Assembly (NCBI GenBank): GCA_903918045.1 | Contig: CAIXCY010000233.1 | Span: 1-56,530, forward strand | Reading direction: 5' to 3' | DNA from: an uncultured Bacteroidia bacterium | GTDB taxonomy: Bacteria > Bacteroidota > Bacteroidia > Bacteroidales > Prolixibacteraceae | DNA length: 56,530 nucleotides | In this document: one piece after another, positions 3,001 to 27,293 of the stretch | How positions within the stretch are numbered: position 1 is the stretch's first letter | How the letters are laid out: every line of letters starts with the position of its first letter | Notes under the pieces: generated by a model | What the model was told of the DNA's origin: nothing | Seen by the model: only the letters and a program-made list of their open reading frames with translations | Database searches by the model: none | Program-made: the position numbers and the translations under genes

Positions 3001-4210
3001 TATCAAAAACGAAGGTATTATCAGGTTTCAATTGGGAAGTGCCATCTTCAAAGAACATTGTCATCGTGGCATTGATAACCTTGGGATACTCCCATTTTTT
3101 ATTCCAGTTATTTATCAGGATTGAATTATCAAATACCGGAAGGCTGAAGTCCCAGCACTCCTTGAACATCACACAATTCAACGGCCATTTTTTCTCTTCA
3201 TAACTCTTCAGAATATCCTGTACTACAGACATTTTCCCCTCGGAAAAATCACCCGAATGGATACTGCAGTGATAGTGAGTGGTCTGAAACCAGGTCATAT
3301 TATCTTTATCATTGTCGGGTGAAAGCCACTTATAAAACGCGTTGGACGATGCGGGCCTCATTTGATCCTCCCCGTTATTCCGTCCATGGAAGAAATACTT
3401 CAACCCTGCCTCCTTTGTATAAAGCGGCAAAGAGCGTGGTAATCCTTCAACATCATCGAGCAAAGCCAATTTTCGCGGCTCGATCTCCAACATATCAACG
3501 ATATATCGGTTGGGCGTATAGAATAATCGGGCTAAGAACTCGGCATTCAGCATCTCAACATTGGCTGAGTTATGTATGGCTCCAAGTTCGATGCGCCCCT
3601 CATTAATGCGGGCAAGGAGCTCCTCAACCTTTTCCTTTGGTGCATTGCGGATCCACCGGGCCATAGGTTCCGAAGTCTCAACCGTCCAGCGGTACTGACT
3701 CTCCTTATCCCACCCATCTGTGAGTTTGCAATAATCCAGTGCCAGTTCAATCCCCAATTCACGAACATCCCGTCTCATTAAATGGAAATAATCGGCATAT
3801 CCCATGTCGTGATGCGAATAGGCAACATGATAAATTTTCCATTTCTTTTGAGGCTTCCAGGCAACGATCTTAGTATCCAATACCTTGCTGTCGTCGGATA
3901 AAATACTAAATTGGATATCGGTTGTAACTTCTTGTTCCGGAATGAAAATCTCATTTTTACTGTCACCGCCAGGCAAAGATTTCAATTGTTCCAAATGAAC
4001 CAATTGAGTACCATTTTTAACAACTAATTGAAAATTTCCTTCCTTCAAATTATTTGATATTGAAACATATACCAGTTGCTTTAAAGGTTCATTTCCCTTT
4101 TTCTTTTGAAAAAAAGGTGTCTGTTCAATATTTTTAATCACAATCTGACCATAACCTGTGATAGAGAGAGACAGGGTAAAAATAAATGAAATAATCAGGG
4201 CTTTATTCAT
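65..4210 (-). CDS. Secreted GH38-like alpha-mannosidase with FN3 and discoidin modules
   Basis: Divergent GH38-type glycosidase, predicted to cleave alpha-mannosides outside the cytoplasm. I chose the ATG at 4210 because it opens directly on a signal peptide ending near TGYGQ; the frame extends 16 codons further, but that would overlap the upstream gene. The protein is about 1381 residues, longer than usual. A beta-sandwich lead-in (about 25-125) precedes the GH38 metal motif SHHDMGY (Asp135), with the candidate nucleophile region LLDDVEG at Asp252/253 and a later FDEHTMGA loop typical of the family. Two fibronectin-III-like domains follow (about 993-1092 and 1093-1222, each with a TYYYKV strand), then a C-terminal F5/8 discoidin-like domain (about 1223-1375), probably for carbohydrate binding. 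It starts 10 bp after the GH29 fusion gene and is the last gene of the run. The family is fairly certain; linkage specificity is unknown. Confidence 0.82.
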   Translation of the reverse strand: MNKALIISFIFTLSLSITGYGQIVIKNIEQTPFFQKKKGNEPLKQLVYVSISNNLKEGNFQLVVKNGTQLVHLEQLKSLPGGDSKNEIFIPEQEVTTDIQFSILSDDSKVLDTKIVAWKPQKKWKIYHVAYSHHDMGYADYFHLMRRDVRELGIELALDYCKLTDGWDKESQYRWTVETSEPMARWIRNAPKEKVEELLARINEGRIELGAIHNSANVEMLNAEFLARLFYTPNRYIVDMLEIEPRKLALLDDVEGLPRSLPLYTKEAGLKYFFHGRNNGEDQMRPASSNAFYKWLSPDNDKDNMTWFQTTHYHCSIHSGDFSEGKMSVVQDILKSYEEKKWPLNCVMFKECWDFSLPVFDNSILINNWNKKWEYPKVINATMTMFFEDGTSQLKPDNTFVFDKDAPNSWVDEHYADFKSASQARLLSNKLVEVESFGAVASASGAKGSIWEDVWAGYNNLLNFDEHTMGAYSEGLVQAPSTLKNSEASLECYYETEYSMHGAFVTDAKTYIDKAKEKVNRQFDGLIKTNGDSTLAVFNPLAFERSDVVRLQNMSGEFQLTDNVTGKIVPTQKLPDNSIAFVATNIPSMGYKTYKIVKDKLAPPLSPMMAKTSTLENRFYKVLFDTKSGAVSSIWDKELKKELVDPKANYKLGEYLYNYVDEKEKDYRAESATLTASKGNVSEVMVAKIKAKGVREMEQTIILYNEIKRIDFVVTMDKSPSMRRHEDYKTYTFWGKESVFFAFPFNVPGFTIHHDLPGTVVEPIADQSEGSTTSHYGIQSFSDISGNDFGITLATAECGLIEYGYPRHSQLWVNESFLKKPEKSYMFLYPMNNWFGTNIQVDQRGKHNLTWSISSHSGNWIDGKAYISGAEISHPLYARFLPKSNSSGTMPSDEFGFLKIDKPNVSVSTFKPAEMNGSGYILRVNEVCGQSTEVTIKLPFLEKIEKAEETNLIEVNRGIPVKVDGNSLTFTINGFGLKTIRILGKNQANAVQGFSANAVADMQVDMKWKKNPGNVIYYNIYRDELPGFKPNLRNRVGKAETSCFSDVPQTKSFGWGTRLEPNTTYYYKVCAVDNLNNEGPASNVVKVTTPASSVANSTPSRVLGIRGYLVSNVGHNRFAALWFHSNPESDVKTYRIFKSLKSDFKPEKADSYEDLDVSQVFKHTTPHGFKTLYRKLNEYDAQVYTDESVENGKTYYYKVVAIDNMGKAGEASNEVTVTIEPDNFPDVQAQSTFESNIAFKALDGSDEPDFSWISAKYGGGSKSQPADIWWSARFRQPVKLKGLMIVNDKRDSIPLPKNYTIELFEDGKWNPFKTVNIGNERKNSVHFESIREVEGVRISVKGADLPTSSNPDLDGFVRLSEVKIINLNNEVVPYRGILTNN

Positions 4211-20918: not shown

Positions 20919-22217
20919 TTAGTTGTCTACTCTGGTCACAGGCTTATCAAATGTCAATTCAACAATTGTATCGGGTGCGTTACGATCTTTTGGTGTACTT
21001 ACTATTTTGATCTTACCATTTTCGGACGTAACTTTAATATTCGATTCAGTAAGATTTTTGGAATCGATAAGTTTTTCGTTCATCATTGGTAATTCAATTT
21101 TATCAGGAGCAGATTTGAAAAGATGAACATAGACCTTATTCTCCTTAAACGTTCCGCCGCCCCACTTTCCATTACGAAACGGACCACCGGCAGTGCCATA
21201 AATTGTAAAACCGTATTTTCTGATCCATTGGCCTAATTCTGCCAGTCTGTTTGCCTGGTCAGCCGGAATCTCACCCGATGCATCGGGGCCAACATCCAGC
21301 AACAGGTTCCCATCGCCAGTTGCACAACCAACCAGATTTCTGATGCATTCGGCAAAGGGTTTGACGTTACCATCTTTCCGGTATGACCATCCTCCGCCCG
21401 GAGCATCAACCACACACATACACGATTCCCAGTTTCGGGTGGTTTGATAAGATCCTATTTTCTGCTCCGGTGTATCAAAATCGGCCTGCAGCGAAGGTAT
21501 ATTTTCTCCAAAAAAACTGCACCGATTATTAATGATTGCCTGAGGCTGAAGTGTTTTTACAAGTTCAAGCACTTTATCAGCATGCCAGTAATTAATCGAT
21601 TCACCAGTTCCGAAACTATCAAACCAGACTACATCTACCTGCCCATAATTTGTAAGCAGCTCCGTAAGTTGACCTGTCATATACTTTTCATATTTACTGT
21701 TATCACCCATCCCATAATCGGGGTGGTGCCAGTCGCGGGGTGAATAATATATTCCAAAGCGGATACCTGCCTTTTTGCACTCAGCTGCCAGTTCCTTAAT
21801 AATATCCTTTCGGTACGGAGTTTTCATGATGGAATAATCGGTATATTTAGTATTCCACATACAGAATCCTCCATGATGTTTAGCTGTGAAAACCAGATAT
21901 TTCATCCCGGCATCTTTGGCAATTTCGACCCAATGCTTTGCGTTGAATTTGGTAGGATTAAATCGTTTGTAAAGGTTATCATAGATTGAATCACCACCTG
22001 TTCCGGCCGGAGCGCCCCATGAACCGTCCAATGGTTTTGGACCGAGTCGTGACCAGCTGATCTCTGTTCCTGCCACGCTGGACATATCCCAATGGATAAA
22101 CATCCCAAAACGGGCATCGCGCCACCATTTCATGCGGTTCTGATCAGAGTCATCACCTGCACCAAACGCTTTGATGATCATTAGAAAGGTTAGAATTACA
22201 AGTATCGATTTTTTCAT
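20919..22217 (-). CDS. Secreted GH29 alpha-L-fucosidase (third GH29 domain)
   Basis: A 432-residue exported fucosidase, compact and without a discoidin module. Signal peptide 1-20 (ending KAFGA). Motifs are RFGMFIHWD (36-44), TAKHHGGFCMW (111-121), TPYRKDIIKE (133-142) and VVWFDSFG with nucleophile Asp200. A short beta-sandwich closes the protein (about 345-432). It is the most canonical GH29 of the three. Spacing is 15 bp to the upstream GH95-like gene and 37 bp to the downstream GH38, consistent with one transcript. Confidence 0.93.
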   Translation of the reverse strand: MKKSILVILTFLMIIKAFGAGDDSDQNRMKWWRDARFGMFIHWDMSSVAGTEISWSRLGPKPLDGSWGAPAGTGGDSIYDNLYKRFNPTKFNAKHWVEIAKDAGMKYLVFTAKHHGGFCMWNTKYTDYSIMKTPYRKDIIKELAAECKKAGIRFGIYYSPRDWHHPDYGMGDNSKYEKYMTGQLTELLTNYGQVDVVWFDSFGTGESINYWHADKVLELVKTLQPQAIINNRCSFFGENIPSLQADFDTPEQKIGSYQTTRNWESCMCVVDAPGGGWSYRKDGNVKPFAECIRNLVGCATGDGNLLLDVGPDASGEIPADQANRLAELGQWIRKYGFTIYGTAGGPFRNGKWGGGTFKENKVYVHLFKSAPDKIELPMMNEKLIDSKNLTESNIKVTSENGKIKIVSTPKDRNAPDTIVELTFDKPVTRVDN

Positions 22218-22232
22218 AAAGCGGAGATATTT

Positions 22233-24416
22233 CTATTCAGATTTTAGTTCGATTTTTTCATTGGCAGATGTTTCAAAGGAGATTCTGTCACCGGAAATTG
22301 TTTCTTCCGGTTTTCCGTTTCTTATCAAAACCACCTTTTTACCCGGCCAGGGATTAATACATGTACAAAGCTTCCCTTTTTCGCTTAAAATACTTACGTT
22401 GGATACTAATCCACCTGAAATTTGCGCAGAAACCAGAAAAGCGCCCCACATCCGGATATTCTTAAAAATTGCTTTTTGATTACCTGGAAAATGGCCAAAA
22501 ATGCGAATTACATTTCCCACACTCATGCAGAACATCTCATTGATCGCATTGGTCACGGTACAACTATTTTCGATGCCGTGGGGATTGCCTGACTGAAAAC
22601 CATTTGGGAAAGTATGTAATGCATAATTATGCAACTCTTTTAACACGTTAGAGAAATCGTATCCGACGCGAATTGCAGCAGCAAAGAAACTATTACTTGT
22701 ATTCTGATCGTGCCACCGCTGCATCATTTCAATCGTATTTCGTGCAACGGACAATAATTCGGGTTTACTGTCAAGGGTGATTGCATTGCAGGGATATATT
22801 TGCTGAATCCCCAGACCATTTCCGTCCACCCAGTCGAGACCCTCTTCCGTATACCGAAAAACCTCCCTTCCATTCCGCTGTTGAATTGGGAAATCGCTTA
22901 GCTTGGCCAAAATATCCCTCCACTTTGCTTGCCGATCTTCATCTCTTTTCAAAGCAGAACTAAGATCAATCATCAGATCAAGTGCATTACGGATAAGTCC
23001 CAGTGATAAAACAGGATTCTTATCCTTTCCGGAACCTTCGTGTATCGCGTCACCATAGATCACATACCGCCCGTTTTCAAATTTAAGGTAGTCTTCCCAA
23101 AAACTGGCAACGGCTAAGGCATAGGGATAAATCTTTTTACCATATTCAGGATCATAGGTGCAACGCCAGTGCTGGGCCATGTTGATCAATCCATAGGCTG
23201 CATTTGAACGCTGACCATAAAACAACCCTTCGAATTCGATATCGTCATTTTTCTGATAACCACCGACGGCAAAGTTGCGGGTTACCTCAATGCCCAAAGG
23301 ACCGATTCCAACAGGATAAAGTATACCCCTGGTTTTTGTGGCATTTTTGCCGTAGAATTCCCCTCTTGACATAAAATCAAGCAACGGTTGATCATGAGGT
23401 TCAATCTGTTCTAACCGGTTGGCTGAACAAAGACTATAAAACGGAGCCTGAAAATTATAATTCAGATGATAATCGCCGTTCCAGGCAGGGGTATCATTGG
23501 TTGTCCAGCCAAACAGCCCGGGTGGAAATTTCGGATTACGGCTACAGGAAGCCATCGTATAAAGTCCCTGGTACCAAGACTTCATCAAAACTGTATCTTC
23601 AAGTGAAACAGAGGACCTGTTCCAATATTTCTGCCACCACTGATTGTGTTTAATAAGTAATGCAGCCTCTGAATTTGTATTGAGCATTTTTACCCGGTTC
23701 TGCACATATCCCAACGGGTCTTCTTTTTTGAATTTGCTTTCAACAGCTAAAGCAATCACGAGTTTTTTACCCGGTTGAACCGTTATCGATTCACCCTTGT
23801 AATTAAACACCTTCAAGGCTACCGCGACCTCTGTCGGAATATCAACGCTATCTTTAAATGCTCTGGTCAGCCAGAAAGTATCATTTGTCTTGCCTATTTT
23901 TAAAATAGCCTGCCTGTTTTCCGGCGCGGTAAGATTTAGAGTAATCTGAGCCTCTTTATCCCTTGAGTTAATTTCAATGAAGATCAGGTTTCCGGTAGCC
24001 GAAACCCACGATCTGGATTCAATTTTTTGTTCCCCGTTTTTAAGCTGACAGGTTGTAATCCCGTTTTTAATAAGCTGCTCTGCTGAAAAATCTGCTTTAT
24101 CAAACCCGTCAATTTTAAGATCAACAAATCCCACCACCCGCGGGCCCGATAACCCATCAGCCTGAGAACGCAGCCTCCAGAAATCATTTTTGGAAAGATA
24201 AAATCGCAGCAAATTATCCTGAAAACCGATGCTCATTGTCAGGTCACCATTCCCCATCAATGGGGCATCAACAGAGAAATCACTTGGTATCCGCTCAGGT
24301 GCCCTAGTCCAATAATTTTTAAAAGGAACAGATGTATCAGATTGGTCAACATTGACCTGAGCATGCAGGCAACACCAAACAACGAGAAGAAATAGGGTCA
24401 GTCCGCTTATTTTCAT
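22233..24416 (-). CDS. Secreted GH95-like six-hairpin glycosidase
   Basis: A 727-residue exported enzyme from ATG 24416, where a signal peptide begins (MKISGLTLFLL...CCLHAQ). An N-terminal beta-sandwich with APLMGNGDL (51-59) and YLSKNDFW is followed by a helical barrel containing WNGDYHLNYNFQAPFY (312-327), close to the catalytic HWDxHxNxNxQ segment of GH95 alpha-L-fucosidases and galactosidases, and a late NPHGIENSCTVT stretch. The open frame does not stop at 24416 but runs 150 codons further upstream through a BRO-N/Fic remnant. Translation from there would bury the signal peptide, so I treat 24416 as the functional start. GH95 itself is likely but not proven; a neighbouring six-hairpin family is possible. 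Confidence 0.75.
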   Translation of the reverse strand: MKISGLTLFLLVVWCCLHAQVNVDQSDTSVPFKNYWTRAPERIPSDFSVDAPLMGNGDLTMSIGFQDNLLRFYLSKNDFWRLRSQADGLSGPRVVGFVDLKIDGFDKADFSAEQLIKNGITTCQLKNGEQKIESRSWVSATGNLIFIEINSRDKEAQITLNLTAPENRQAILKIGKTNDTFWLTRAFKDSVDIPTEVAVALKVFNYKGESITVQPGKKLVIALAVESKFKKEDPLGYVQNRVKMLNTNSEAALLIKHNQWWQKYWNRSSVSLEDTVLMKSWYQGLYTMASCSRNPKFPPGLFGWTTNDTPAWNGDYHLNYNFQAPFYSLCSANRLEQIEPHDQPLLDFMSRGEFYGKNATKTRGILYPVGIGPLGIEVTRNFAVGGYQKNDDIEFEGLFYGQRSNAAYGLINMAQHWRCTYDPEYGKKIYPYALAVASFWEDYLKFENGRYVIYGDAIHEGSGKDKNPVLSLGLIRNALDLMIDLSSALKRDEDRQAKWRDILAKLSDFPIQQRNGREVFRYTEEGLDWVDGNGLGIQQIYPCNAITLDSKPELLSVARNTIEMMQRWHDQNTSNSFFAAAIRVGYDFSNVLKELHNYALHTFPNGFQSGNPHGIENSCTVTNAINEMFCMSVGNVIRIFGHFPGNQKAIFKNIRMWGAFLVSAQISGGLVSNVSILSEKGKLCTCINPWPGKKVVLIRNGKPEETISGDRISFETSANEKIELKSE

Positions 24417-24866
24417 TGCTTCTATTTGCTTTAATGTGGCGCCAAGGAATTGTGATACTGCAAATTGGAAACCGCCTTTCGAAATGTTTTTTTGCCTGAT
24501 TTGCCCGGCAATACTGTTATCGCTATATAAAAACCAATCTAAAAATTTCATTGCCCTGGTGTTCGCGAAATATTTAGCCAAAGCAATAATACCTTCACTA
24601 TCCAAAGTGTCGGTCAGGTATTTTTTACCATCAGGTGCCGATAATTTCAGTTGGTTAGTGGCACTAACCAACTCGTTTTTTTCTTTTTTGAGTTTTGTTT
24701 TTAGGTATTTCCAATAGTTCCGCACTTTGGTGTAATCGGCTTCCTCGTTCAAAACACCAACAACATCAACCACACTAAACCACCACCTGGCGTTTTGCTC
24801 GTCCCAGATAGCCCGCACCTCGCGGTCATCAAAAAAACGGATGGATATTTTTTGTTGCGCGTTCAT
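24417..24866 (-). pseudogene. BRO-N/Fic protein remnant fused in frame to the GH95-like gene
   Basis: Residues 1-118 of the open frame form a BRO-N (prophage antirepressor type) domain: IRFFDDREVRAIWDEQ, WWFSVVDVVGVL, DSEGIIALAKYFA and KFLDWFLYSDNSI. This jumps directly to AGQIRQKNISKGGFQF and LKQIEAM (120-151), which is the middle of a Fic domain. In intact BRO-Fic proteins of Bacteroidota roughly 40 residues lie between these parts, and the HPFxxGNGR catalytic motif follows; both are missing. The Met of the last Fic residues is also the start codon of the glycosidase. The remnant has lost Fic activity, may still express a DNA-binding domain, and supplies the leader of the GH95-like gene. 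It begins 25 bp after the mannitol dehydrogenase gene. Confidence 0.75.
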
Positions 24867-24891
24867 TTTTTTAAAATGATTTTTTGCCGTA

Positions 24892-26094
24892 TTATTGATT
24901 TAATATTTTATCAAGTTCAATGGCTCCATTAATCACTTCACCATCAGGGTTTACATCAAATCCACAAACAGTGGTCATCACATCTTTTATACCTTTCGCA
25001 TAAATAGCCGCAAATTCCATGTCTGAAGGCAGTAGATTTCCTGCTTCATCCTTAGCCCTGAAGTGAAATCCTGCAACCAAGGCCTGCAATATCAAATCAT
25101 ACGGAAGGTGCAATTCAAGCGCCAGATGGATTGCTCCAGCCATCCGGTCCTCTTTTCCAAGTTTTCGTTGTAAATCACAGCCTACACGGAAAACCGTATC
25201 GCCCAATGCTTTGTTTTGAAACCTGCGGATCAGATCATCCGCATGGTCAATAAGTGCATCCATCGTAAATTCATCAGGGTACTTTGCCAGCAAGATGGCA
25301 GCAGCCTGCAGCATGGTTTGTCGAACTTTTTCTTTTATCGATTGATCGGATAAAACTTCATATAAAAAGGTGGACTCAGGATCGGAAATAAAACCAAAAT
25401 AAGCTGTAGCCGCATGACCCAGGTTGTGGATAAACAGTTTCCGGTCGACCCATGCCTTCATATTCTCCTTCGGAGCAAGCCCCTCGATCTGTGGGATCGG
25501 ATTTTTAAATGCCCGCTTATCGAGAATCAGCGTATTGTATGGTTCCGCAAAAACCTGCAAAAAATCTGCCTCCATCTCTTTTCTCAGCATGATCGGAACC
25601 ATTTTGCCAATACTTGTTTCAATCAGGCCAACCCGTTCATTCAGAGGATAACCTTCGGGCAAATGCTTTTTAAGCTCCTCATAAATAAACTCAGCAGCAT
25701 TCCGGAGGTTCTCAGCAATTATGATATCAAGAGGTGTTGCATCCGGTACTTCATATCGCGACACCAAACCCTTGGCGATCAAATGCATGATTGCCTTTAA
25801 GCCATGTAAACCAACCGAAACTGCTAAAATTCGTGCAGTTGCGATTTCGTTAACTACCTGATCCTCGTCACCTCCAAAAACCCCTCTAACATTGTCTACC
25901 ATAATGACAGATTCGACATCGTCCTTGACTACAACACGGTAGCAGTGACGGATATTCAATTCGTCAATCACAGGTTTAAAAACATCAATAAAAACAACTT
26001 CGTAGCCACCTCTGCTAAAGAGCTGACCGATGAAGGAGCGGCCAATTTTACCCGCTCCAAAAAGGACTAATTTATTTTCGGAATCATTAATCAC
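24892..26094 (-). CDS. mtlD: Mannitol-1-phosphate 5-dehydrogenase family protein
   Basis: A 400-residue cytoplasmic NAD-dependent polyol dehydrogenase that would interconvert mannitol 1-phosphate and fructose 6-phosphate. The Rossmann motif is LFGAGKIGRSFIG (11-23), and the catalytic K-x4-N-x2-H reads KLFIHNLGH (Lys219, Asn224, His227). Residues such as ELNIRHCYRVVV match MtlD proteins, which are usually about 380 residues. The start overlaps the stop of the upstream PfkB kinase gene by 4 bases (ATGA). With the kinase and lyxose/mannose isomerase it forms a mannose-fructose cassette; related fructuronate/tagaturonate reductases are a less likely alternative. Confidence 0.83.
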   Translation of the reverse strand: MINDSENKLVLFGAGKIGRSFIGQLFSRGGYEVVFIDVFKPVIDELNIRHCYRVVVKDDVESVIMVDNVRGVFGGDEDQVVNEIATARILAVSVGLHGLKAIMHLIAKGLVSRYEVPDATPLDIIIAENLRNAAEFIYEELKKHLPEGYPLNERVGLIETSIGKMVPIMLRKEMEADFLQVFAEPYNTLILDKRAFKNPIPQIEGLAPKENMKAWVDRKLFIHNLGHAATAYFGFISDPESTFLYEVLSDQSIKEKVRQTMLQAAAILLAKYPDEFTMDALIDHADDLIRRFQNKALGDTVFRVGCDLQRKLGKEDRMAGAIHLALELHLPYDLILQALVAGFHFRAKDEAGNLLPSDMEFAAIYAKGIKDVMTTVCGFDVNPDGEVINGAIELDKILNQ

Positions 26095-27293
26095 CTCGTA
26101 GAAATTTGGATAAGATACTGAAGTTTAAATATTTCCACGATCGTATGTTTTTCACGCGGTTCCCGCTCAATATAGGTTCCTCCAATATAATAGCATGCAA
26201 AACCTCCCGAAGCAACACCCCACGCTATCGCTTCGGTCAAATTCAATTTTCCGGTTGCTTCAGTTTTTATCTGACGTGCCAGAGATGCGATGATTCCCCC
26301 TGCAAAGTTATCCCCGCAACCCGTAGTGTCGCCTTTGGATGAAGGGTTGTGTGTAAAATCTTCGTTGACTTTTTGAGAAACAGGAAGTTTTTTAAGATCA
26401 CACATTTCAAATAATTTTCCGTTTGAAAAAAGATAAAAATCCTGAGCCCCGTTTGTAATCACAAAGGTTGGAACATCGAGATCAACAAAATATTGTGCCG
26501 CTTCCTCAATCGTTTTTTGGCCACTGATTTTAAGTGACTCCTCACAATCCATGATCAGTAAGTCGATCAGTTTAAAATCTTCAGGAGATTCGACCAGCGG
26601 CCAGGGATGCCCCGGATTAAGCTTCTCATTGCGAAAATCAAAAACGGTATTAACCACGGTGAGACAACCATTTTCTTTGGCACGGGACAACAAGGTTGTG
26701 AGACTATCATGAATTCGCGGAACCAGTGCTGTTCCGCCAAAACAGACGATATCCGCCCTGAAAAAATCGTCTCCGAGGAGGTCTGGTGTATAATCCCACG
26801 CAGCGCCGATATTATTAATGAACGTGCGCTCACCGTGATTATTGTCGTATGTAGTATCAGAAAGGACATCGGTAAACGGCGTCCTTTTTTCGGAAACACG
26901 GTGGTAATGATCGATGTTCAGAGGTGTTTTCCGGACCAGTTTTTCAATAAACGTTGCTGTTTCATCCATTCCTGTTCCGCCGTAAAAGCAAACCTCAAAA
27001 TCCTCCTGAGGAAGCAGTTGTGCTGCATTGATCAAAGAAACCAAACCGGGTCCGCCAATATTTACGGCTTCGGGTGACTCGCCACCTGTTAGTTCCCTGC
27101 TTATTTCAGAATAAAAAACTCCCGAGAATTTCTCGAGTTCCTCTGTGAAAACGAGTCTTCCGGGTGCCAGACCACCATCCCCTGCATTGTGTGAAAGATA
27201 TTTTTGAAAAACTGGCGAATCGAAACGAACCCCGGTATATAAATAATCGGCAAGTGCACATCCTGTCCCTGCCACAATAATTTTTTTGCTCAT
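26091..27293 (-). CDS. PfkB-family carbohydrate kinase, probably hexokinase/fructokinase type
   Basis: A 400-residue ribokinase-superfamily kinase. The C-terminal signature GDTTGCGDNFAGG (321-333) gives the catalytic base Asp328 and the anion hole. The N-terminal half has the substrate side GGPGLVSLINAA and the CFYGGTGMDE loop. It is longer than typical fructokinases (about 310), with an N-terminal region (GDGGLAPGRLVF) seen in a PfkB subgroup of unknown substrate. It lies 3 bp downstream of the isomerase and overlaps the dehydrogenase by 4 bases, so the three are almost certainly one unit. Fructose is the likely substrate if the isomerase acts on mannose, but this is inferred. Confidence 0.88.
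   Translation of the reverse strand: MSKKIIVAGTGCALADYLYTGVRFDSPVFQKYLSHNAGDGGLAPGRLVFTEELEKFSGVFYSEISRELTGGESPEAVNIGGPGLVSLINAAQLLPQEDFEVCFYGGTGMDETATFIEKLVRKTPLNIDHYHRVSEKRTPFTDVLSDTTYDNNHGERTFINNIGAAWDYTPDLLGDDFFRADIVCFGGTALVPRIHDSLTTLLSRAKENGCLTVVNTVFDFRNEKLNPGHPWPLVESPEDFKLIDLLIMDCEESLKISGQKTIEEAAQYFVDLDVPTFVITNGAQDFYLFSNGKLFEMCDLKKLPVSQKVNEDFTHNPSSKGDTTGCGDNFAGGIIASLARQIKTEATGKLNLTEAIAWGVASGGFACYYIGGTYIEREPREKHTIVEIFKLQYLIQISTR

Follow-up and report, generated by a model that had tools for sequence, protein, structure and literature searches.

The fused reading frame and its neighbours

The window analyzed here (the whole 56,530-nt stretch, from an uncultured bacterium of the Prolixibacteraceae, genome G000) contains, at positions 22233..24866 of the minus strand, an open reading frame which starts with ATG, encodes 877 amino acids and has no internal stop. 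ORF analysis, Pfam searches and alignment bore out what an earlier note had described: this one frame runs from a BRO-N domain through a scrap of Fic into a GH95-like glycosidase with a putative signal peptide (designated GLY). Its left neighbour, at what would be the old site of the island discussed below, is a mannitol dehydrogenase-like gene (24892..26094, minus strand), and its right neighbour, syntenic across the sister loci, is an alpha-L-fucosidase-like gene (20919..22217, minus strand).

The 5′ part is a BRO-N/Fic remnant of 150 codons (24417..24866, minus strand, with its ATG at 24866). It comprises a Bro-N domain (24528..24821, minus strand; residues 16-113) and a mid-Fic scrap, AGQIRQKN...QIEA (24417..24509, minus strand). 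In the 150-aa piece, Bro-N (Pfam PF02498, E 1.4e-5) reached 26.1 bits against a cut-off of 25.6; in the whole 877-aa protein it scored 22.3 bits, below that cut-off. The scrap was matched by the NCBIfam profile NmFic (residues 103-149, E 1.4e-6) with 28 bits, far below the cut-off of 230, and its identity therefore rests mainly on alignment with intact proteins. Profile searches of residues 1-150 thus upheld the Bro-N half of the original assignment and fell short for Fic. Pfam Fic gave no match in the window protein, and the alignment shows that the HPFxxGNGR motif of Fic, present in the sister genomes G013 and G014, is absent from it. In the predicted model of the remnant (mean pLDDT 75.7) BRO-N is folded (pLDDT 76-92 per block of ten residues from residue 11 to 110), and pLDDT falls below 50 at residues 118-137.

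GLY itself (22233..24416, minus strand; 727 aa) carries the Pfam domains DUF5703_N (residues 204-312 of the 877-aa frame) and GH95 catalytic (residues 391-778), the latter detected by PF22124 with 83.3 bits against a cut-off of 27. Hydropathy and start context place its own start and a signal-peptide-like sequence at 24357..24416 (minus strand), beginning at the Met of QIEAM; the hydrophobic stretch (mean hydropathy 2.8 over 12 residues) looks typical by sequence. Both fused genomes, that of the window and G002, retain this sequence at the internal Met. GLY resembles other GH95-like glycosidases with DUF5703_N in domains and synteny, but the window adds to it an in-frame N-terminal extension of 150 codons. 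The claim that the remnant has replaced the native leader of GLY is upheld, with the unfused leader seen in sister lineages and not in that of G000 and G002.

A protein search of the window's own genome found four places, namely the window and three others of only 41-44% identity, and the idea of a multi-copy scrap was rejected on these grounds.

The remnant probably derives from a gene of a restriction-modification island

The genus search covered 18 genomes and the two protein searches 101. In G013 (contig C180) the end of hsdM, hsdS, an intact BRO-Fic gene (292 aa) and hsdR (1008 aa) are followed by GLY and the syntenic downstream genes; the contig covers the right flank of this island, the left flank lying beyond its end. 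Pfam recognized Methylase_S, HSDR_N and Fic in the island, its hsdM piece being without a Pfam match, and PADLOC recognized MTase_I, Specificity_I, REase_I and PDC-S04. The intact BRO-Fic protein was matched by Pfam Fic, by NCBIfam NmFic adenylyltransferase and by PADLOC PDC-S04 (E 1.5e-161), with Bro-N slightly below its cut-off.

The source of window residues 1-150 was probably such a gene, that is, an RM-type BRO-Fic (PADLOC candidate PDC-S04, the NmFic-type 'protein adenylyltransferase Fic') from an RM island that has been lost. Compared with PDC-S04, the window frame lacks the Fic motif and the C-terminal half, has 42 residues deleted and has a glycosidase attached. An accessory gene embedded in a type I RM island is what G013 shows directly before GLY; in the window, no hsd gene lies beside the frame. 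One study reports that it found no evidence of defence activity for PDC-S04 in its model system (PMC12409345).

BRO-N had been taken for a prophage-type domain. A prophage origin was rejected, since the G013 gene at the GLY site lies within a type I RM island and none of the six matching phage records has BRO-N and Fic together; none of them covers 80% of the protein either. Plasmid records gave 1325 matches, one of which covers 80% of the protein. Ant, KilA-C and ORF6C are named as partner domains of prophage BRO/antirepressor proteins (PMC2701414, PMC4257102); Pfam found none of the three in the window protein, which has the Bro-N domain alone in common with the phage proteins. In intact relatives Bro-N is partnered by Fic.

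To place the gene among its relatives, the nearest ORFs (each trimmed to 380 aa at most) were scanned with profiles, 73 upstream and 69 downstream, after 7 upstream and 11 downstream loci had been dropped because of a contig edge or distance. Methylase_S was found in 10/73 of the upstream and HSDR_N in 9/69 of the downstream ORFs, and the other neighbour families were mostly single host genes. The G013 hsd proteins, as queries too narrow for typing, gave an hsd match besides BRO-Fic in 11 of 80 relatives. RM is a minority context of BRO-Fic overall, though it is the context at the GLY site.

Within the aligned part, identity with the window was 97% for G002, 94% for locus L005 and 67-88% for the other 29 rows of the alignment. 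L005 (positions 690-1544) is labelled Kiritimatiellae, and at the DNA level its BRO-Fic gene shares 91% identity with the window remnant; this similarity may reflect either a recent cross-phylum transfer or a mis-binned contig.

States of the locus in sister genomes

Besides the G013 island, the sister genomes contain several other arrangements at this site: (i) in G014 (contig C42) the mannitol dehydrogenase-like gene is followed by an hsdS-tail-like scrap, an intact BRO-Fic gene (300 aa plus stop), 27 nt and GLY, (ii) in G002 (contig C86) the dehydrogenase-like gene and an hsdS-tail-like scrap precede BRO-N and half of Fic, fused to GLY in an ORF of 915 aa, and (iii) in G005 and G010 the site is clean, the dehydrogenase-like gene lying directly before GLY with neither island nor BRO-Fic (GLY matches lie on two contigs in each of these genomes, and the start side was compared). 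The two hsdS-tail-like scraps were judged by eye, and that of G002 has an internal stop. GLY is syntenic with the fucosidase-like and GH38-like genes, and the synteny across the region holds in G002 and G014. The same-strand genes that are separate in G014 are thus joined in G002 and the window; among the matches listed, open frames longer than 400 aa occur only in G000 (888) and G002 (915). The 5′ ends of the two fused BRO genes differ (MNAQQKIS versus MKIS).

The G014 copy (L145, 7742-8644) is an intact BRO-Fic gene without the rest of the RM island, preceded by the hsdS-tail-like scrap, and suggests that a BRO-Fic gene can outlast the hsd genes. A further degraded Fic scrap (QIEAMPKTTFDEIV...) lies within other sequence in the sister genome G016 (contig C4; L167, about 3600-3850).

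The two deletion junctions

The Fic/GLY join, the second junction of the window (QIEA/MKISG), lies at AATG (24414..24417, minus strand), at the identical base in G002. The tetranucleotide occurs in the Fic frame (GAAGCAATG) as well as at the GLY start of G005, G010, G013 and G014 (GAATG), and QIEAM is natural in the intact relatives L007, L016, L026 and L060, as the alignment shows. Read from Fic, AATG contains an in-frame Met codon; read from GLY, it contains the start codon. We infer that the join arose by deletion via this microhomology, the use of which would keep the frame automatically; the argument that preservation of the frame was improbable by chance (about 1 in 9) is therefore weak. 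In the DNA search of the genus, which took in 18 genomes, several of them incomplete, 9 matched, and G002 alone besides the window spans the join.

The other junction is the scar of an in-frame deletion of 126 nt (42 codons) inside BRO-Fic, at 24498..24512 (minus strand; I119/A120), recognized by comparison with G013 and G002. Exactly 126 nt of the intact G013 gene are missing, between the imperfect repeats ATTGACGGGCAAA and TTTGCCGGGCAAA, and an alignment with 30 BRO-Fic proteins of other loci places the 42 missing residues where SDNSI joins AGQIRQKN. This deletion was found only in the window genome, the G002 fusion being without it. Both of the in-frame deletions proposed from the window sequence therefore exist, with prior and intermediate states in sister genomes, but they did not occur in one episode: the join is shared with G002 and the internal deletion is not.

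The internal junction was found in none of the best 80 of 520 loci. In 79 of these, 186-193 codons match 144-150 query residues, and these loci are therefore without the deletion; the remaining one (L079, 6001-6400, a Bacteroidales MAG) has a BRO-N gene truncated differently, which ends soon after KKKAYA. A stand-alone short family with the same internal junction, named in the earlier note as what would overturn it, was thus not found among the best 80 of 520 loci, and we attach practically no weight to the reading in which such a family merely abuts GLY. Nor is an assembly artefact at all likely: the internal deletion is present in one assembly only, but the Fic/GLY join recurs in a second one (G002), the regional synteny extends to G002 and G014, and the ends of the internal deletion sit in an imperfect repeat.

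Divergence of the fused segment and its possible transfer

The BRO parts of G000 and G002 are separated by a dS of 0.11-0.12 (0.119 over 146 codons; 0.11 over 145), against 0.75-1.75 in ten flanking genes, which indicates that the fused piece postdates the split of the two species. GLY (dN 0.106, dS 1.165 between G000 and G002) is under purifying selection. The window BRO is more distant from the sister alleles of G013 (dS 0.42-0.43) and G014 (0.81-0.82), and repeated gain or exchange of islands is therefore probable; the series of eroded states compares different loci and does not trace the history of a single lineage.

The body of the dehydrogenase-like gene in the window is G014-like (dS 0.53 versus 1.05), unlike its last ~100 nt and the spacer, which look G002-like; the stretch comprising the spacer and the last dehydrogenase codons (24867..24955, minus strand) may mark an approximate edge of recombination. 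A permutation test on the kinase and dehydrogenase genes (dehydrogenase tail) gave 118/5000, and one at the GLY start (prefix) gave 158/2000, which is not significant. The recombination signal is modest. In the mannitol dehydrogenase-like and PfkB kinase genes (window positions 24892-27293) the window resembles G014 far more than G002; in four genes lying further upstream that were compared with both, its distances to G014 and G002 are roughly equal. The region is of mosaic ancestry.

The transfer of the fused segment by recombination, considered as a separate step, is somewhat favoured. It is contested by the possibility that both species received closely related islands at this site and each lost the same stretch via AATG, giving independent identical fusions. 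The low dS of BRO next to flanking genes at 0.75-1.75 and GLY at 1.16 would fit such a history, as would the fall in G000/G002 identity soon after the join and the unlike 5′ ends of BRO. However, the same ends would have to arise twice at a microhomology of 4 bp, which is unlikely; the spacer before BRO is also common to the window and G002, and the tail of the dehydrogenase-like gene is G002-like while its body is G014-like. We favour a single fusion that then spread by recombination, and regard two identical deletions as improbable, though the main rival for this step.

Constraint on the remnant and the choice of start

Apart from the variable N-terminus, 13 codons differ between the BRO parts of G000 and G002; of the nucleotide changes, 5 are replacement and 9 silent. 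Neutrality gave P values of 0.001-0.016, depending on the transition rate (conservatively, at most 6/15), and on single branches P was 0.02-0.13, which is not decisive. If the fusion is older than the G000/G002 changes, the constraint acted after it; otherwise it may pre-date the fusion. The absence of accumulated stops, to which significance had been attached, is uninformative because the chance of no stop after 15 substitutions is 0.44-0.53. The window copy itself shows relaxed constraint: the Fic motif is gone, and P101, which is Pro in 103/103 of the family loci in the comparison (in which some loci are represented twice), is Ala.

Start-context scores were trained on 32 gene starts, a small and partly related set that includes two sister GLY starts. 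The BRO ATG scored 5.59 and the GLY ATG 1.46 (training median, 4.60). The latter lies above 95.9% of 291 internal Met codons, whose mean is -6.1, and the GLY ATG of G002 scored 5.0. The score is noisy, as the genuine BRO start of the intact G013 gene reached only -0.11. Judged in this way, both ATGs may be usable as starts; the likeliest case is that translation of GLY still begins at its own ATG, with the remnant tolerated.

These data also bear on exaptation, in which selection keeps the fused frame, either for two starts (a cytoplasmic BRO-N-tagged and a secreted plain GLY) or because BRO-N tunes expression. The frame is open in two species, G002 retains BRO-N in full together with half of Fic, the BRO differences lean towards silent changes, BRO-N is predicted to fold and both starts look usable. 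We nevertheless consider exaptation doubtful, because the lack of stops carries no information, the constraint may pre-date the fusion, the window copy has lost 42 residues as well as the otherwise invariant Pro, and no fused match was found in the other 16/18 genomes of the genus, some of them incomplete. Still less probable is its combination with transfer, namely a dual-start gene with a captured BRO-N, held in frame by selection, of which the allele passed between species by recombination.

Proposed history and significance

Our preferred explanation, to which we assign a probability of roughly two-thirds, is that the remnant is a scrap of the BRO-Fic gene of a type I RM island, which was fused to GLY by deletion and transferred, with GLY still made from its own ATG. 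An hsdM-hsdS-BRO-Fic-hsdR island would once have lain between the mannitol dehydrogenase-like gene and GLY, and loss of the hsd genes would be a further step beyond the two deletions. Deletion through the AATG microhomology would have joined Fic to the start of GLY, and the fused segment would have passed between the G000 and G002 lineages by homologous recombination; the internal deletion of 126 nt separates the window from G002. GLY would be translated from its own ATG, signal peptide included, and exported. Initiation at the BRO ATG would additionally yield an 877-aa product whose signal sequence is internal; this product would probably not be exported in the normal way and would have no selected role.

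Bacterial genes that are neighbours on the same strand become fused when a deletion removes the intervening stop and spacer. Compared with the usual fusions of this type, the window has a decaying defence-type gene as its 5′ partner and a gene with a putative signal peptide as its 3′ partner, and the long product is for this reason probably not the useful one. A BRO-Fic/GLY fusion was not found described in the open-access literature consulted. The case is a genuine fusion by deletion in which remains of an RM-type island took part, and it is well resolved and fairly ordinary.

Its value lies in the fact that one syntenic site in one genus presents the RM island, the eroded, fused, and fused and trimmed forms and the clean site side by side, so that gene fusion by deletion can be followed step by step. 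For annotation, a 'BRO-N glycosidase' in which a signal peptide lies internally may have been given the wrong start, and BRO-N at the GLY site marks the debris of a defence island, not a prophage.
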